A stretch of DNA of 64,000 nucleotides from Leclercia adecarboxylata (lineage in GTDB: Bacteria; Pseudomonadota; Gammaproteobacteria; Enterobacterales; Enterobacteriaceae). A program made the position numbers and the translations under genes. Under the pieces are notes generated by a model. The model was not told where the DNA came from, searched no databases, and worked only from the letters and a program-made list of their open reading frames with translations. Shown here piece after piece: positions 1 to 32,872 of the stretch; within the stretch, counting starts at the first letter, position 1, and every line of letters begins with the position of its first letter. The stretch is from NCBI RefSeq assembly GCF_023639785.1, contig NZ_CP098325.1, positions 372,001 to 436,000 on the forward strand. Direction: 5' to 3'.

Positions 1-1062
1 TGAAGCGTAGGGAACGATATAGTTTTGCTTAGTCCCATCAGATTCTTCTATAGTGACGTATAAGTCACCATTACCGCCCGTGGCATAGATATCGGTGATC
101 TCAAATGCACCGGGCGCAACGAAGGCCTGGTAAATTTGATAGCCATTCTGCTTAATCACGACACGTGCATTTGTTTTGGCAATACCACGCACGACTGGCG
201 CATAACCACGAAGGCTATCTGGCATCATGTCAATATCGGTAGCAAGCTGCAAGCCTGTGAAAGGAACACTGTCGAAAATATTGGATAATGAAGAACTTTC
301 ACCAACAACAAGTGTACCGTTTAATGGAGTAATACTGCGCTGAGCATACAGGTATACTGAATCCCATTTGCCATTGTCGTAGTTTGTCTTATTCCAGGTG
401 CCAAGATTACGAATACGCCATGCACCGATATTTAAACCAGACTGTAAGTTGAGGCTATAGTTCTCATTTTCTATCTCAAAATCTTTACTGGCGTTAAATT
501 GATAGTTAGTAAATAGCGCATTAATCCCTTCATCAAATTCTTCAGAAGGGATATAACCTTGAGCATTGTTATTCAACGCAGCCTGAGGAATTGAAATAGA
601 CAATTGTTGCTTATTAAAGTTGAATTCAGTTTTGAAATCAGGAATAATGCTAGTATTAGTACAACCAGTAGCATCTTCCTTTAACTCGGGAAAAGCGCTA
701 ACGCGCAATCCGTAACGTTTAAGCCTGTCCAGGCTTAAACAAGGTACTAGCGTGGTTTTCTCATCACCGCTATCATTTACCTTTTCCATGAAAAGAATAG
801 TTGTTATTTCCTGGTAGTCATTATTTAACAGGATTTCAACACGATATTCTCCCGGGGATTGGGCATCTTTGGTTGAGAAAATGGTTAAGTCAGGTACCGT
901 TGCTGCATTGTTCTGACCAACTGAACTAATAAATGCAGGGTCAAAAAAGTCGCGAGCTAGTGTTTTGTTACATAGGCCCACAATTATAGCCGGCACAAGA
1001 ACGGTAATTTTCGGAGATATTATGGCAAATAATTTATCCCATTTTTTGCTGGATGCAGACAT
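1..1062 (-). CDS. Fimbrial outer-membrane usher, N-terminal part (runs off window)
   Basis: The reading frame is open from an ATG at 1062 to the window edge, giving 354 codons of a FimD/PapC-type usher, the outer-membrane pore that assembles pili from chaperone-subunit complexes. Residues about 15-36 form a signal peptide, followed by FFDPAFI, which resembles the start of mature ushers. C108 and C134 fit the disulfide pair of the usher N-terminal chaperone-binding domain. Around residues 290-325 there is a typical usher barrel signature (VRGIA, VVIKQNGYQIY, VAPGAFEITD). The gene starts 34 bases after the chaperone stop and is probably in the same operon. The C-terminal half of the barrel and the adhesin genes lie outside the window. 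Base composition is markedly AT-rich. Confidence 0.9.
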   Translation of the reverse strand, partial: MSASSKKWDKLFAIISPKITVLVPAIIVGLCNKTLARDFFDPAFISSVGQNNAATVPDLTIFSTKDAQSPGEYRVEILLNNDYQEITTILFMEKVNDSGDEKTTLVPCLSLDRLKRYGLRVSAFPELKEDATGCTNTSIIPDFKTEFNFNKQQLSISIPQAALNNNAQGYIPSEEFDEGINALFTNYQFNASKDFEIENENYSLNLQSGLNIGAWRIRNLGTWNKTNYDNGKWDSVYLYAQRSITPLNGTLVVGESSSLSNIFDSVPFTGLQLATDIDMMPDSLRGYAPVVRGIAKTNARVVIKQNGYQIYQAFVAPGAFEITDIYATGGNGDLYVTIEESDGTKQNYIVPYAS

Positions 1063-1096
1063 ATTTTTAACCCGGTTGGTCTAAAAGCGGTCATCA

Positions 1097-1789
1097 TCAA
1101 AGTGATGTCGTATGAGTAGATCCAGTTCCACCATGCTCGTTAGCTATTGCCCAAATGACTTGATTGCCATCTGTGCCTGCTGGAAGGGTGAAGTCGTTGG
1201 TCGAGAAGGGATCAATATGTGGAACTGATTCACGCAGTTGTTTGCCGTTAATCATCACTGATTTGAAATAGATGAAGAAAGGCGTTGGGTTTTTAATTGT
1301 TATTTTATTATGGGTTTTGCGCCATTCAAGCTTAGTGACTTCACTGTCTACTTTCATATTCTGAATCGCTTTGGGACGATAAATCAGACGCATTCTATGG
1401 CGAACCGCAAGCTGCAGTTTATTTTCACCCTCAATGGTGTCGTTAGTCGGTGGAATGGACATCACGTCAAAGAAATAAACGCTGTCTCGATCTTTCGGCG
1501 CTTTGGAAATGTAAGCGTTGGGGAAAATACGAACCGTATTTTTTTGTTTTCCTTCCAGACGGAATAATGGCGGTGTAACCATAAAGTAAGAGTTACTCTC
1601 ACCTTCGGCAGGTTCAACCCATGATTTCATCAGGAATGGGCCATCATCCTTATTTTCCATTTGAGCGCTGATTTCACGCGATCCCTCTTTGTAGAGATAA
1701 CGCGTAGATTCAATCACAACACCACTGTTAGCGATACCGCTCACCGCCATCGTGGCCACTGCGATTAATTGATAAATAGACTTACGCAT
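1097..1789 (-). CDS. Periplasmic fimbrial chaperone (PapD/FimC family)
   Basis: This 230-residue protein has a signal peptide ending near residue 22, then two immunoglobulin-like domains. Arg30 in ESTRYLY matches the conserved Arg that anchors the subunit C-terminus in PapD-like chaperones. DSVYFFDVMSIPP (about 102-114) and LRLIYRP-like HRMRLIYRP (131-139) are the usual F1/G1 strand signatures. Such chaperones complete the fold of pilin subunits by donor-strand complementation and deliver them to the usher. It lies between the major subunit and the usher, the common order in chaperone-usher operons. An AGGGA ribosome site lies 8 bases before the ATG. The fimbrial type cannot be named from this alone. 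Confidence 0.93.
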   Translation of the reverse strand: MRKSIYQLIAVATMAVSGIANSGVVIESTRYLYKEGSREISAQMENKDDGPFLMKSWVEPAEGESNSYFMVTPPLFRLEGKQKNTVRIFPNAYISKAPKDRDSVYFFDVMSIPPTNDTIEGENKLQLAVRHRMRLIYRPKAIQNMKVDSEVTKLEWRKTHNKITIKNPTPFFIYFKSVMINGKQLRESVPHIDPFSTNDFTLPAGTDGNQVIWAIANEHGGTGSTHTTSL

Positions 1790-1813
1790 AATTCAATCCC
1801 TGAATATAAAAAA

Positions 1814-1840
1814 ACGGAGTCTGCACACGGCAGACTCCGT
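1814..1840 (-). terminator. Stem-loop with U-tract between pilin subunit and chaperone genes
   Basis: A perfect 10-bp stem (ACGGAGTCTG / CAGACTCCGT) with a 7-base loop is followed, on the minus strand, by a run of seven T residues. It lies directly after the major subunit stop. In fimbrial operons such an element commonly lowers expression of downstream chaperone and usher genes relative to the abundant subunit; here that role is inferred from position and structure. Confidence 0.75.
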
Positions 1841-1847
1841 TCGAAAA

Positions 1848-2408
1848 TTAGTAAGTGATGGTAAAGGTTGCAACACCTTTAACTTCACCTGCAGTTACGC
1901 CTGCTGCGGTTTTAACATATGCAGCTTTATAGCTCAGCAGAGTAGGAGTAGTGCTGGTATAAGCGATAGTTTTCGGTGAAGTACCGTCAAATTTAACGCG
2001 GGTAGAATCGCTGTTGATCAGGGCCAGACCAGTATTTTTAGCTGGGTTAGCTGCCTGGTTGGTCAGAATGTCAGGCGTACCGGAGATGTAATCACCAGAT
2101 ACGTTAACGTTCAGGTTGCCAGCGAAATCAGCACCAGCTTTCTTACAATCGGTGATTTTGTAAGTAATGTCCTTCGCAGAAGCCATAGATGGGGTGTTGA
2201 TCGCCAGGCCTTCTAAGGTAGACACTTTGATGTCATCCAGAACAACAGTGCCGCCAGTAATAGAACCGTATGGGGTGATATTACAAGAGTTATCGGTATC
2301 AGTTACGTTACCGTGGATAACGATTTGAGCAGTGTTACCTGCAGCGAAAGCCTGAGCACTCATAACTGCAGCAGCAGCAACCATAACAGCAATAATATTT
2401 TTTTTCAT
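1848..2408 (-). CDS. Fimbrial major subunit (type 1 pilin family)
   Basis: This 186-residue pilin starts MKKNIIAVM, with a signal peptide cleaved near AFA-AGN at residue 22. The mature domain has the pilin Cys pair (C42, C88) and ends GVATFTITY, the penultimate-tyrosine beta strand recognised by chaperones. A longer open frame begins ten codons upstream, but MKKN starts the signal peptide and is the likely start. It is first in the operon, consistent with the most abundant product, and is followed by a terminator-like hairpin. It acts as the polymerising shaft subunit on the cell surface. Confidence 0.9.
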   Translation of the reverse strand: MKKNIIAVMVAAAAVMSAQAFAAGNTAQIVIHGNVTDTDNSCNITPYGSITGGTVVLDDIKVSTLEGLAINTPSMASAKDITYKITDCKKAGADFAGNLNVNVSGDYISGTPDILTNQAANPAKNTGLALINSDSTRVKFDGTSPKTIAYTSTTPTLLSYKAAYVKTAAGVTAGEVKGVATFTITY

Positions 2409-3237
2409 TTGTTCAATCCATAAATTAATGATAACCATTCCTGAAGGAAAATAGACGCGTCATGGTTATTGGGCGAGTCTATCTCTCTTTCTTCCTCTTA
2501 TACATTGCCTGAGCTGCTATTGGTGCGTGTCGATATCACCCTTTGGCGTACTGGCTCGCATCAATAGTTAAAATCGATGTACCGAGGTGGAGCGTAATTT
2601 ATTACTTTTTTTTACTGGCTGCATGTGAATTTATTTTGAATTAGCGATCATGAACAATATCTGCATTGTTTTTTATATTTCTTTCTTTATGTGACTTTTT
2701 AGTTCGCTGGTTTTTGTAATATAATTTGGTTTAGAAATGTGTTTTTTCTTTCTATAAGCGTGGAGAATGCTATTTTTGATAGATATGCTTTGAATATGAA
2801 AGGCTTATGGATTTGTTAAAAAAGCGTGAAAAAATATTTTATGTATGAACTGTAAGGCTTCACTTTCGTTTGTGGGTGTGATCTTTCCGTCGAAGGGGCA
2901 ATAAATAGCGAATCAATTAAATCATTTGTCTAATATTTTTAAACACAGTAAAAAAAGCCAAATCATTTTGTGAAGCAATCCTGGTGATTGCTTAAGAGGG
3001 GGTTTATTTTTAATTAAGTTTAAATTGTGTGATTTTGTTGATCCTGCATATGTTTTGAATGCCATAAACGTGCTTTTTAAGATATCTTCTCATATAATAA
3101 TATCTATATTGCGCACATAATATAAATCATATGAATAACCTATTTGATGATTATTTATATGAATTACAATGCTTCGTGTTACTCAGGATGAGTAGCAGTG
3201 TCTAACCCTTTGAGCGTATAAGGAAATTTTACGAACA
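2409..3237. promoter_or_regulatory. AT-rich divergent regulatory region of the fimbrial island
   Basis: There is no credible gene in these 829 bases. The stretch separates the pilin gene (minus) from the winged-helix regulator (plus) and is very AT-rich with many T-runs, the kind of DNA H-NS prefers. A hairpin lies at 2973-2993 (AAGCAATC, loop CTGGT, GATTGCTT). I looked for paired inverted repeats that would mark a fimS-like invertible promoter and did not find any. A large UTR or small RNA is possible but not supported. Confidence 0.5.
2973..2993. other. Stem-loop in fimbrial upstream region
   Basis: Two 8-base arms (AAGCAATC and GATTGCTT) pair perfectly around a 5-base loop. A T-rich stretch starts about ten bases downstream, so weak termination of a plus-strand transcript is possible. 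Its role is unknown. Confidence 0.4.
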
Positions 3238-3810
3238 ATGGAATTCGATTTTTTTATAATTAATGATGAAATTATTTTTGATGTGAATTCTTGTCAAGTA
3301 AAGGCCCTTGATGGTCCCGACGAAGGCATCATACTTAACACACCAACTGCGCGTTGTTTGCAGCTTTTAATTGATAAAAGAGGTGAGGTTGTTTCCAGAG
3401 AAAGCTTTCTGGAGCAGGTCTGGCAGGTACGAGGGATCGTAGTATCACAAAATACGTTTTACCAAAATATCTCACTATTAAGGAAGTCGCTAAAAAAGGT
3501 AGGTTTAACGGAAGATATAATTGTTACTGTTCGCCGTAAAGGATTTATGCTTGCTACTGATACTCGTATTCAACCAATAGAAGATAAAAATAGTCTTGTA
3601 GGGGAAGGGGCTGAAGCTAATATAACGAATGATAGACAGTCTTCTCCCTTGCCTAACGTGGCGTATAAAGCGCGTGGTTTTAACTTAATGAACGCCTTTC
3701 TTCAGTCAATGGGCCGGGAATCGAAAATGCCGAAGTGGTTCATAGTGCTCATCATTCTTTTTATCATTTTAGAACTCATTTCACTTATTTCTGGCTATCT
3801 AAACAGATAG
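3238..3810 (+). CDS. Membrane-anchored winged-helix transcriptional regulator (CadC/ToxR-like)
   Basis: This 190-residue protein has an OmpR/PhoB-type winged-helix DNA-binding domain at residues about 20-110: RCLQLLIDKRGEVVSR, then the recognition helix region SQNTFYQNISLLRKSL and the wing TVRRKGFML. A polar linker follows, and one hydrophobic helix (about 166-186) lies near the C-terminus, leaving only a few periplasmic residues. That layout matches short membrane-bound regulators of the CadC/ToxR type that lack a sensor domain. It is divergent from the fimbrial operon and AT-rich like it, so control of the fimbriae is the natural inference. The AAGGAA ribosome site is 12 bases from the ATG, longer than usual. 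I do not recognise a gene name. Confidence 0.8.
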   Translation: MEFDFFIINDEIIFDVNSCQVKALDGPDEGIILNTPTARCLQLLIDKRGEVVSRESFLEQVWQVRGIVVSQNTFYQNISLLRKSLKKVGLTEDIIVTVRRKGFMLATDTRIQPIEDKNSLVGEGAEANITNDRQSSPLPNVAYKARGFNLMNAFLQSMGRESKMPKWFIVLIILFIILELISLISGYLNR

Positions 3811-3878: not shown

Positions 3879-4907
3879 TCAGGATTGTTGCAAACCCAAA
3901 TCTATTGGCGTCTTACTGGGTTCTCCGCTAATTTCACGTGCCAGTTTTGGTACCATATAGCCCGAAACGAGAGTTAACAACTCACGCATAATTTTGCGAG
4001 CTTCGTCATCATTCACCATGAAATGTGCGGCTCCCTGCACTTTATCAAGTACGTGAATGTAGTATGGCATTACGCCGGCGTCGAACAGGGCATTACTCAG
4101 TCTGGCCAGGGTATGGGCATTATCATTTACGTCTCGCAACAGTACGCTTTGATTAAGCAGGGTAACGCCAGCCTGACGTAGTCTTAACATTGCCTGGCGG
4201 AATGATTCGTCAATTTCGTTGGCGTGATTAATATGGTTCACCAACAAGATTTGCAGTGAAGAACGCGCCAGTCGCTGGGCCAATTCATCTGTAATACGCG
4301 CCGGGATAACAATAGGTAAACGGCTGTGAATGCGTAACCGTTTAATATGTGGGATAACTTCCAACTGAGCGATCAGCCAGTCCAGCTCGTGATCTTTCGC
4401 CATCAGCGGATCGCCACCCGAGAAGATAATCTCATCCAGTTCCGGGTGGGCGGTGATGTAATCGAGTGCAGCCCGCCAGTTACGTTTGTTCCCCTGATTA
4501 TCGGCATAGGGGAAGTGACGACGGAAGCAATATCGGCAATTTACCGCACAACCGCCCTTTACCAGTAATAAGGCGCGGTTTCGGTACTTGTGCAGCAAAC
4601 CGGGCACTACGCTGTTCTGCTCTTCCAGGGGATCGGTGCTGAAGCCAGGGGCGGCGATAAACTCTTCTTGTGCAGTAAGCACCTGTTTTAAGAGTGGATC
4701 GTCAGGGTTACCTTTCTCCATTCGGGCAACAAAAGCGCGCGGAACACGGAGCGCAAACAGGCGCTTCGCATCACGGCCAGCCAGGAGTTTTTCGTTAGCG
4801 TCCAGATTTAAAAGACGCAGCAGTTCATCCGGACTGGTGATTACATCTGCAAGTTGCAATAACCAATCTTCTCTGGATGGGGTGTTTAGGGTTACAATAT
4901 GCGCCAT
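3879..4907 (-). CDS. epmB: EF-P (R)-beta-lysylation enzyme, lysine 2,3-aminomutase EpmB
   Basis: This 342-residue radical SAM protein converts (S)-alpha-lysine to (R)-beta-lysine, which EpmA then attaches to EF-P. The cluster motif is C120-A-V-N-C124-R-Y-C127, followed by [12 protein letters not shown] and the FSGGDPL motif that contacts SAM. Length and sequence match E. coli EpmB (YjeK) throughout. It is divergent from efp across 40 bases, so modifying enzyme and substrate share an upstream region. The other partner gene, epmA, is 6.5 kb away at 11412. Confidence 0.97.
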
Positions 4908-29839: not shown

Positions 29840-30841
29840 ATGCGTAAGTCAGTTATTGCGATCATTATTATCGTGCTGGTTGTACTTTACACCTCGATTT
29901 TTGTGATTAAAGAGGGTGAGCGTGGGATTAAATTCCAGTTCAGCAGCGTCGTGCGTGATGGCGACAAGCGTCCGGTAATTTATGAGCCAGGCCTGCATTT
30001 CAAAGTGCCGTTTATTCAGTCAGTGAAAACGCTTGATGCGCGTATTCAGACCATGGATAACCAGGCCGATCGTTTCGTGACCAAAGAGAAAAAAGACCTG
30101 ATCGTTGACTCCTACATCAAGTGGCGTATCAGCGACTTCAGCCGTTACTTCCTGGCGACCGGTGGCGGTGACGTCTCCCAGGCCGAAGTGCTGCTGAAAC
30201 GTAAGTTCTCTGACCGTCTGCGTTCTGAAATTGGTCGTCTGGACGTGCGCGACATCGTAACCGACTCTCGCGGTCGTCTGACCTCTGAAGTGCGCGATGC
30301 GCTGAACTCCGGCTCCGCGGGCACGGAAGATGAAGTGACCACCCCAGCGGCCGACGATGCCATCGCCAAAGCAGCTGAACGCGTTCAGGCTGAAACCAAC
30401 GGCAAAGTAGCGGTTATCAACCCGAACAGTATGGCGGCGTTGGGTATCGAAGTGGTTGACGTGCGTATCAAGCAGATCAACCTGCCGACGGAAGTGTCTG
30501 AGGCTATCTACAACCGTATGCGTGCCGAACGTGAAGCGGTAGCGCGTCGCCATCGTTCACAGGGTCAGGAAGAAGCTGAAAAGCTGCGTGCAACCGCAGA
30601 CTATGAAGTGACTAAAACTCTGGCAGAAGCGGAGCGTCAGGGTCGTATTCTGCGCGGTGAAGGTGATGCCGAAGCCGCGAAGCTGTTTGCCGATGCATTC
30701 AGCCAGGATCCCGACTTCTATGCCTTTATCCGTAGCCTCCGCGCCTACGAGAGTAGCTTCCAGAGCAATCAGGACGTGATGGTTCTGAGCCCGGATAGCG
30801 ATTTCTTCCGCTACATGAAGTCGCCTACGACAACCCGATAA
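29840..30841 (+). CDS. hflC: FtsH regulator HflC
   Basis: This 333-residue partner of HflK has a signal-anchor helix at residues 5-20 (VIAIIIIVLVVLYTSIFV) and an SPFH domain with VVDVRIKQINLP. It is the last gene of the amiB-hflC superoperon and is followed by a strong terminator. Confidence 0.97.
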   Translation: MRKSVIAIIIIVLVVLYTSIFVIKEGERGIKFQFSSVVRDGDKRPVIYEPGLHFKVPFIQSVKTLDARIQTMDNQADRFVTKEKKDLIVDSYIKWRISDFSRYFLATGGGDVSQAEVLLKRKFSDRLRSEIGRLDVRDIVTDSRGRLTSEVRDALNSGSAGTEDEVTTPAADDAIAKAAERVQAETNGKVAVINPNSMAALGIEVVDVRIKQINLPTEVSEAIYNRMRAEREAVARRHRSQGQEEAEKLRATADYEVTKTLAEAERQGRILRGEGDAEAAKLFADAFSQDPDFYAFIRSLRAYESSFQSNQDVMVLSPDSDFFRYMKSPTTTR

Positions 30842-30852
30842 TTGCGGGCTGT

Positions 30853-30892
30853 AAAAAAGCCAGTCAGGCATTTTACCTGGCTGGCTTTTTTT
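30853..30892. terminator. Bidirectional rho-independent terminator
   Basis: A 10-bp stem (GCCAGTCAGG 30859-30868 with CCTGGCTGGC 30876-30885) is flanked by six A residues on the left and seven T residues on the right, so it can end both hflC (plus) and the peptide gene (minus). Confidence 0.93.
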
Positions 30893-30909: not shown

Positions 30910-31203
30910 TTAGTTGCCCAGCATTCTGTTTAGCAGTCCACCAACCAGCGGTACACCTGCCAGCGCGGTTTCAATGGTAAAACCAACCGTCAGGCCAACC
31001 ATTTTGCCCAGTTGGGTGCCCAGATCTGGAGCAAGTGATACCAGATTGACGTTACCAACGATTGGTAATTCAATTTTGCTGATAATATCGCTGCCCATTG
31101 ACCATACAGACGTACCAATGTTGCTGCCCAGAGAAGCCAGGCTGTCTTGCAGCCAGCCTGCGCCGCTTACGGCTTCAAGTTCAAATGCGTTCAATTCTTT
31201 CAT
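30910..31203 (-). CDS. Microcin-like peptide precursor with double-glycine (GA) leader
   Basis: This 97-residue precursor starts MKELNAFELEAVSGAG. Residues 1-15 fit the double-glycine leader consensus (L-x-x-x-E-L-x-x-V-S-G-A), and the GA|G junction resembles that of microcin E492. Cleavage after Ala15 would leave 82 residues starting GWLQDSLASLG. The mature part has no Cys, GxxxG pairs (GSNIG, GLTVG) and a hydrophobic C-terminal half, as in membrane-active class II bacteriocins. AGGA 8 bases before the ATG at 31203 selects this start over the Met three codons upstream. No exporter or immunity gene is in the window. E. coli has yjeT at this position. Confidence 0.72.
   Translation of the reverse strand: MKELNAFELEAVSGAGWLQDSLASLGSNIGTSVWSMGSDIISKIELPIVGNVNLVSLAPDLGTQLGKMVGLTVGFTIETALAGVPLVGGLLNRMLGN

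Positions 31204-32872
<1,669 letters not shown>

Follow-up and report, generated by a model that had tools for sequence, protein, structure and literature searches.

The window analysed here, a 64,000-nt stretch of the Leclercia adecarboxylata genome (contig NZ_CP098325.1, positions 372,001 to 436,000), carries between hflC and purA a gene, designated P0001, whose sequence marks it as probably encoding a conserved, bacteriocin-like peptide that is exported. We favoured the reading, at a rough probability of 0.6, that P0001 specifies a secreted glycine-zipper peptide, exported in trans by a distant exporter of the C39 peptidase type and acting like a bacteriocin outside the cell. The larger finding is a scattered set of such precursors with one exporter. 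Genomes and loci are denoted by G and L numbers. The papers cited by PMC number are represented by excerpts, to which statements about them apply.

A conserved GA-leader precursor gene in the hflC-purA gap

The P0001 open reading frame (ORF) is a real gene, with orthologs and purifying selection behind it. The gene, its parts and its neighbours are listed below with the basis of each assignment.

30910..31203, minus strand: P0001, GA-leader precursor gene with its stop codon, 97 residues (ORF, orthologs, pN/pS)
31159..31203, minus strand: P0001 leader, residues 1-15, MKELNAFELEAVSGA (sequence, alignment, leader rule of PMC10680697)
30913..31158, minus strand: predicted mature peptide of P0001, residues 16-97 (alignment; predicted cut site)
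31201..31219, minus strand: conserved 5′ block AATTAGGATGATTATTATG with ribosome site and start codon (block search)
30853..30892, both strands: hairpin able to end transcription of hflC (plus) and P0001 (minus) (folding)
29840..30841, plus strand: hflC, convergent neighbour of P0001 (gene reading)
31574..32872, plus strand: purA, divergent neighbour of P0001 (gene reading; annotated neighbours in K. pneumoniae)

The 97-residue product begins with MKELNAFELEAVSGAG. The ATG of MKEL was taken as the start because relatives in the genus begin with M[KR] at this point and because it is accompanied by the conserved block AATTAGGATGATNANNATG, which, allowing at most one mismatch, occurred once, at the P0001 gene, in every own-genus carrier (11 of the 15 genomes searched). 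The block had no match in the peptide-less G032 and G036 or in G211 and G061, two carriers from other genera, and its reversed control had none in the same 15 genomes. An AGGA at 31212-31215, 8 nt ahead of the ATG and within the conserved block, bore out the proposal of the first-pass annotation that the gene has its own ribosome site. The terminator that it had proposed as shared with hflC was likewise recovered as a hairpin folding on both strands (dG −29.3, z −4.4 and dG −23.7, z −3.9), which a simple terminator scan reported for the minus strand only.

Hydrophobic residues V12, L9 and L4 occupy leader positions −4, −7 and −12, fitting the rule for class II microcins (PMC10680697), and the leader was kept in all 16 aligned sequences; both results upheld the earlier assignment of a C39-type GA leader. 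The leader is followed by G16, and GA|G remained the most likely predicted cut. The 82-residue core contains no Cys, 15.9% Gly and a net charge of −2, with a grand average of hydropathy of 0.65; its GxxxG steps at 26, 62, 66 and 70, which include the glycine zipper G62-x3-G66-x3-G70-x3-G74, agreed with the Cys-free, hydrophobic core with GxxxG pairs described before.

Eleven of the 60 same-genus genomes, including the window's own, carry P0001, the 10 others at 51-65% identity, and a protein database search added four relatives at 49-64%. None of the 11 genus copies had an internal stop within the match. M1, L4, E8, V12 and G14-A15-G16-W17-L18-Q19, together with G26, G30, G62, G66, G70 and G74, were invariant in the 16-sequence alignment, where the G028 copy was trimmed ahead of its divergent tail. 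The ratio of nonsynonymous to synonymous polymorphism (pN/pS) over 12 orthologs, a set leaving out G028, the second G033 gene and G061, was 0.352, indicating purifying selection; it was 0.271 in the leader, 0.266 in residues 16-36 and 0.407 in residues 37-96. Mean amino-acid identity was 0.74, 0.71 and 0.60 for residues 1-15, 16-36 and 37-96, respectively. The expectation that the leader is more conserved than the core was thus borne out against residues 37-96 only and not against residues 16-36.

The first-pass annotation had P0001 replacing the yjeT gene of the hflC-yjeT-purA order in E. coli K-12. This replacement was ruled out: yjeT stands beside the peptide gene in K. grimontii, G211, G046 and a K. 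pneumoniae record (in which the P0001 relative is annotated as a hypothetical protein), and G032 and G036, with gaps of 286 and 262 bp, have neither. Of 23 non-carriers entered, the gap was readable in 21 (G009 and G007 gave none) and measured 370-374 bp in 19, with yjeT present in all four printed among those 19 (G025, G006, G058 and G035); the gap in 13 carriers spanned 692-1323 bp. On a tree of hflC and purA, which held 34 of 37 rows (G009, G007 and G033 being short of sequence), the carrier trait required 6 changes, at least 5 of them forced by supported branches. The history of P0001 is one of patchy gain and loss and not that of one clade.

Carriage by phages or plasmids was rejected. 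There was no match in phages. The plasmid collection gave two matches, both K. pneumoniae records: one measures 550 kb, and the other, CP125156.1 (5.37 Mb, filed as a plasmid), was read over 49.5 kb and there has the gene order of a chromosome (L221). A Rhizobium match (L003) was a chance alignment inside a 745-residue ORF.

A CvaB-like exporter just outside the window

Two proteins of the window's genome matched the C39 peptidase family above the Pfam cut-off. One is encoded by an ATP-binding cassette (ABC) exporter gene at G000:C1:363448-365580 (C39 E 8.7e-36, ABC membrane E 1.3e-45, ATPase E 6.4e-29), which is adjoined by a gene for an HlyD-family protein; together they span G000:C1:363448-366866, at 5.1 to 8.6 kb from the window's left edge. 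Both matches were judged by ECG..C, which we take to be the C39 motif, and this motif, as well as the H and D motif residues, is visible in the exporter. The second C39-like protein scored 33.6 bits against a cut-off of 22, lacks ECG..C and was for that reason rejected as the exporter. The search for a CvaA/CvaB-like system thus yielded a CvaB-like C39 exporter with its HlyD partner. The earlier statement that no exporter is nearby needed correction, the ABC gene being ~6 kb past the left edge of the window; the guess that export needs a system elsewhere was supported. The exporter is ~39.5 kb from P0001; the corresponding distance was 34-41 kb in G211 and in eight own-genus genomes having both on one contig, and 55 kb in G061.

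The exporter belongs to an island between yjeJ and epmB (L017:8578-19062), the far end of which is window 1-3810. It carries genes for five paralogous glycine-zipper peptides of 107-108 residues and for one 75-residue double-glycine peptide; one island precursor, with a GTG start and beginning MKELNAFEM, has the same first eight residues as P0001. The island adhesin is weakly MrkD-like (20 bits, cut-off 27). The part of the island inside the window and its border are as follows.

1..1062, minus strand: fimbrial usher-like gene, truncated at the window edge (likeness to the annotated island of a K. pneumoniae record)
1097..1789, minus strand: fimbrial chaperone-like gene of the island (position and likeness, not family-tested)
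1848..2438, minus strand: fimbrial subunit-like gene of the island (position and likeness, not family-tested)
3238..3810, plus strand: winged-helix (Trans_reg_C) regulator-like gene of the island (assigned from a family search on its G045 counterpart)
3879..4907, minus strand: epmB, right border of the island (gene reading)

The HlyD, ABC and YjeJ genes form a core found in 11/11 genomes of the genus that possess the island exporter, always with yjeJ next to the exporter; in G046, YjeJ was located by tblastn. One to five zipper peptides and fimbrial genes directly adjoin the exporter in 8 of these 11 and do not in G011, G032 and G046; the zipper and fimbrial genes of G011 and G032 are on the opposite side of the exporter, towards groEL. 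YjeJ had no match in seven exporter stretches of other genera, which restricts it to being, at best, an immunity candidate of this group.

Co-occurrence of peptide, leader and exporter

Across the 60 genus genomes, peptide and exporter were both present in 9 and both absent in 47, with two genomes having the peptide only (G028, G033) and two the exporter only (G032, G036; p 1.9e-7). Family-wide (392 genomes), the exporter was found in 28/29 carriers of the peptide family vs 78/363 non-carriers (p 1.5e-16), and in 13 of the 14 genomes with the strongest peptide matches; both p values are from Fisher tests that ignore shared ancestry. A C39 exporter in carrier genomes was thus the rule, and the family-wide exception, G028, has transposase-like ORFs at the expected place of the exporter island, along with a divergent peptide tail. 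We name these ORFs presumptively, as IS3-like. The other genus-level exception, G033, is a genome 79% complete, and both exceptions point the same way as the overall co-occurrence. The same transposase-like ORF pair of G028 was seen at two places, that of the lost island and beside the cyoE-side peptide described below (L050, L211).

G046 combines intact HlyD and ABC genes with the hflC-purA peptide 34 kb off. No match to the island usher, adhesin or zipper peptides was found in the 20 kb read near its exporter, a loose pattern detected no leader-like ORF in the same 20 kb, and the leader profile, applied genome-wide with an E limit of 1, returned one match, the hflC-purA peptide itself; cargo with a very different leader would be missed by these tests. 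With one exporter and one leader match, G046 is a natural minimal pair for export in trans.

The leader profile was built from 37 N-terminal segments of 30 residues, none of them from the window's genus, and a match in the 60 genus genomes was counted as anchored if it started at profile position 1-2 and reached position 15 at E ≤0.05. Such a match was present in 20 of the 21 genomes with any CvaB-like exporter (E ≤1e-100) vs 2/39 others, these two being G028 and G033. The one exporter genome lacking such a match, G016, has a completeness of 86%; G025, which is exporter-negative, had an unanchored match at 0.048, which was not counted. Among the 392 family genomes, 82 had a leader match at E ≤0.003, and the exporter was present in 75 of them vs 31/310 without a match; removal of the 18 genomes that were sources of the profile left 57/64 vs 31/310. 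Four of the seven leader-positive exceptions do have C39 matches above the Pfam cut-off.

Scattered precursors

The gene had been called an orphan, a description that no longer applies, and the search for other GA-leader peptides in this genome succeeded: some 12 precursors with such a leader, six of them in the island, are spread over five sites of the window's genome. Three tandem zipper precursors, two of them nearly identical, lie between mpl and yjgA (G000:C1:459530-460864; L158:4530-5864), one precursor lies between trhP (yegQ) and yegS, and the leader profile located one beside cyoE. Both mpl-yjgA zippers tested exceeded the cut-off of DUF5862 (Pfam PF19180), the five island zippers fell below it, and P0001 itself had no DUF5862 match. 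A literature search on DUF5862 found none.

The mpl-yjgA and trhP-yegS sites were reached through a profile of the shorter partner peptides. These are peptides of 67-85 residues, often containing GAGFIADA (L092, L093, L094, L096, L106-L109, L014), which stand in tandem with longer P0001 relatives in all but L014, like two-peptide bacteriocins. In seven stretches of other genera (G337, G152, G264, G322, G133, G101, G168), exporter operons contain or adjoin relatives of P0001; such relatives also occur as lone genes elsewhere, for example at plsY-tsaD, gltA-nei and a gap near what we take to be aspS/yebC. Other genomes use the aqpZ-ybjD, ytfE-fklB, metR-yigM and clpA-aat gaps. Gap genes carry their NCBIfam names, apart from yajR, ybjD, yigM and fklB, whose names we presume. 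On the cyoE side, peptides of two kinds with different cores occur in different species (L206-L211, L213-L215, L217, L219), and one kind seems, on inspection by eye, to repeat a phenylalanine-rich step of some 11 residues. G020 has an E492-group microcin gene (L216:2653-2919; NCBIfam E 2.1e-29, above the cut-off) on another contig than the exporter. Since this gene stands away from the exporter, microcin-type cargo shares the scattered arrangement.

A wider generalisation, which we advance as a speculation more likely to fail than to hold, is that Enterobacteriaceae possess a scattered secretome of single-gene cassettes in fixed housekeeping gaps (hflC-purA, cyoE-yajR, mpl-yjgA, yegQ-yegS, aqpZ-ybjD, plsY-tsaD, ytfE-fklB, metR-yigM, clpA-aat). 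All would depend on a single exporter, which is frequently linked to a fimbria in the window's genus. The cargo would differ by species at the same site and would have no individual immunity genes; rather than being separate microcins, the peptides would form a jointly acting set on the cell surface. The set supplies candidate cargo that can be examined gene by gene.

Comparison with known peptide systems

P0001 resembles the class II microcins of the MccV and E492 group in its 15-residue GA/GG-type leader, its Gly-rich hydrophobic core and the presence of a C39 exporter with an HlyD membrane fusion partner in the genome. The published traits include a leader of 15-18 residues with hydrophobic positions −4, −7 and −12 and a Gly content of 12-26% (PMC10680697), compared with 15.9% in the predicted mature part of P0001. 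Unlike these microcins, P0001 stands alone, ~39 kb from the exporter, without an immunity gene in the gaps of 13 carriers and without a curated family match above cut-off (Pfam MccV E 0.061, 14.3 bits, cut-off 27; nothing relevant in NCBIfam). The proposal of a new class II microcin therefore held for leader, Gly content and exporter and did not hold for closeness, immunity gene or family match. Because class II microcins are encoded beside their immunity gene (PMC13101503), the gap without a second conserved ORF is the main result that speaks against a plain microcin.

Closeness to the exporter is listed as a class II microcin trait in PMC10680697, with the suggestion that future searches could be limited to its vicinity; P0001 and its stray relatives would escape searches so restricted. 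The same excerpts report exporter-positive Enterobacter and Klebsiella genomes without a microcin by an earlier method, on which P0001 bears, and 9 and 16 putative microcins, respectively, recovered in them by a new one. Putative class II microcins have also been surveyed across Enterobacterales (PMC9746304). In the study of Serratia marcescens class II microcins, a C39 exporter was absent from only 5 of 1,562 microcin-bearing assemblies, and two putative microcins were at different genome locations; the excerpts do not portray these microcins as lone conserved cassettes at constant positions between housekeeping genes (PMC13101503). Only 7/40 Serratia candidates tested there gave zones, so that an absence of killing by P0001 would be nothing unusual.

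P0001 shares with CdzC and CdzD of Caulobacter (PMC5380434) the small size and GxxxG architecture of peptides of the type I secretion system (T1SS), with export predicted for P0001, and its G62-G66-G70-G74 array is an extended zipper of the Cdz-like type. It differs in that the Caulobacter exporter and the essential immunity gene cdzI are clustered; neither a clustered exporter nor a three-transmembrane immunity gene is present at P0001. The distribution of the peptide family tracks that of the exporter (28/29 vs 78/363, ignoring ancestry), as for C39 substrates. The Neisseria Naps (PMC11798529) are also double-glycine peptides and have a C39 peptidase nearby, with no killing of rivals found in the excerpted account; unlike P0001, they are cationic, 16-36 residues long when mature and clustered in one island. 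Our literature search, which did not extend to supplementary microcin lists, found no account of this locus or of orphan cassettes in fixed gaps.

Proposed mechanism and alternative explanations

According to the favoured reading, P0001 would encode a precursor from which a hydrophobic, Cys-free peptide with a glycine zipper is secreted. The C39 peptidase of the CvaB-like exporter would recognise the GA leader and cleave behind A15, and the 82-residue peptide would leave through ABC, HlyD and, presumably, TolC. We infer cleavage and passage because CvaB/CvaA/TolC is the established route of class II microcins (PMC13174018). The zipper helix would most likely insert into the membranes of related bacteria, a guess from its anatomy. 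Export in trans is very likely; an antibacterial role, likewise guessed from anatomy, is an even call.

Several observations weigh against this reading. No other conserved small ORF that could be an immunity candidate was found in the hflC-purA gap of 13 carriers, and immunity might be provided from a distance or be shared. The island exporter is retained in G032 and G036, which lack this peptide, and the second C39-like protein is above cut-off, so a part in export is conceivable for it. The distribution of P0001 is patchy but clustered on the tree, and shared ancestry may contribute to the co-occurrence to an extent that the Fisher values ignore. G028, G399 and G414 have leader matches with no C39 match above cut-off, and G033 is listed likewise, one of the G414 matches carrying an internal stop. 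The exporter occurs without such a leader in 31/106 genomes, which would be expected if other leader types exist. The AlphaFold model of P0001 had a predicted local distance difference test (pLDDT) score of 51.8 and gave no usable fold, and the Naps are peptides of the double-glycine type without antimicrobial activity (PMC11798529).

Among the alternatives, the secreted peptide might act together with the island fimbria at the surface as an adhesive, aggregating or biofilm component and not as a killer of rivals, which would account for both the many paralogs and the missing immunity ORF in the gap. The exporter, zipper peptides, winged-helix regulator and adhesin-, usher-, chaperone- and subunit-like genes do form one island, the cyoE-site peptides have phenylalanine-rich steps as judged by eye, and in Caulobacter, zipper proteins form aggregates on the surface of the producing cell (PMC5380434). 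We nevertheless considered this partnership unlikely, given that G046 has the exporter and the hflC-purA gene with no usher or adhesin match in the 20 kb read, that the E492-group gene of G020 has the same leader type and that the other-genus exporter stretches with P0001 relatives had no usher or adhesin match. The lack of an immunity gene would also suit a peptide acting on its own population through autolysis or stress death, as the gonococcal Naps do, and autolysis-driving double-glycine peptides without antimicrobial activity are known (PMC11798529); as the Naps are short and cationic, however, while the P0001 core has 82 residues and a net charge of −2, a self-directed action appeared improbable.

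A cell-to-cell signal exported by a C39 system would fit the leader and exporter, but the long hydrophobic zipper core, hflC and purA as neighbours and the many paralogs leave it very little room. Equally slight is the chance that P0001 is a relic, no longer exported or expressed and persisting at a neutral site. Its patchy presence, its absence from G032 and G036 and the divergent tail in G028 would agree with decay, whereas the pN/pS of 0.352, the 11 genus copies free of internal stops and the conserved 5′ block argue for a maintained gene.

Further observations on exporters and the island

The second C39-like protein is a degenerate C39-like ABC protein at G000:C1:3306001-3318000 (L018), whose neighbours are T1SS-like by look, not family-tested; a long low-complexity ORF near it is perhaps a repeat adhesin. 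In the exporter operons of one genus, an SPFH/Band 7 gene lies upstream of the peptides (L090, L091 and L095, of which L090 was family-tested). As hflC is itself an SPFH gene, P0001 has such a neighbour too, probably by coincidence. Crp-like helix-turn-helix proteins, weak and below cut-off, stand beside other-genus exporters (L092:3406-4248, L093:8637-9587, L094:8370-9239) and are possible regulators. The adhesin-like gene of the island is interrupted by a DDE transposase gene in G053 (L044:8257-10336).

The yjeJ gene has been used as a linked marker in published work, as far as the excerpted account shows. In E. coli K-12 MG1655 (NC_000913.3, L222) it stands alone between yjeI and epmB, at the site of the island, and may be the leftover of a lost exporter island. 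The island thereby offers a possible origin for this unexplained E. coli gene.
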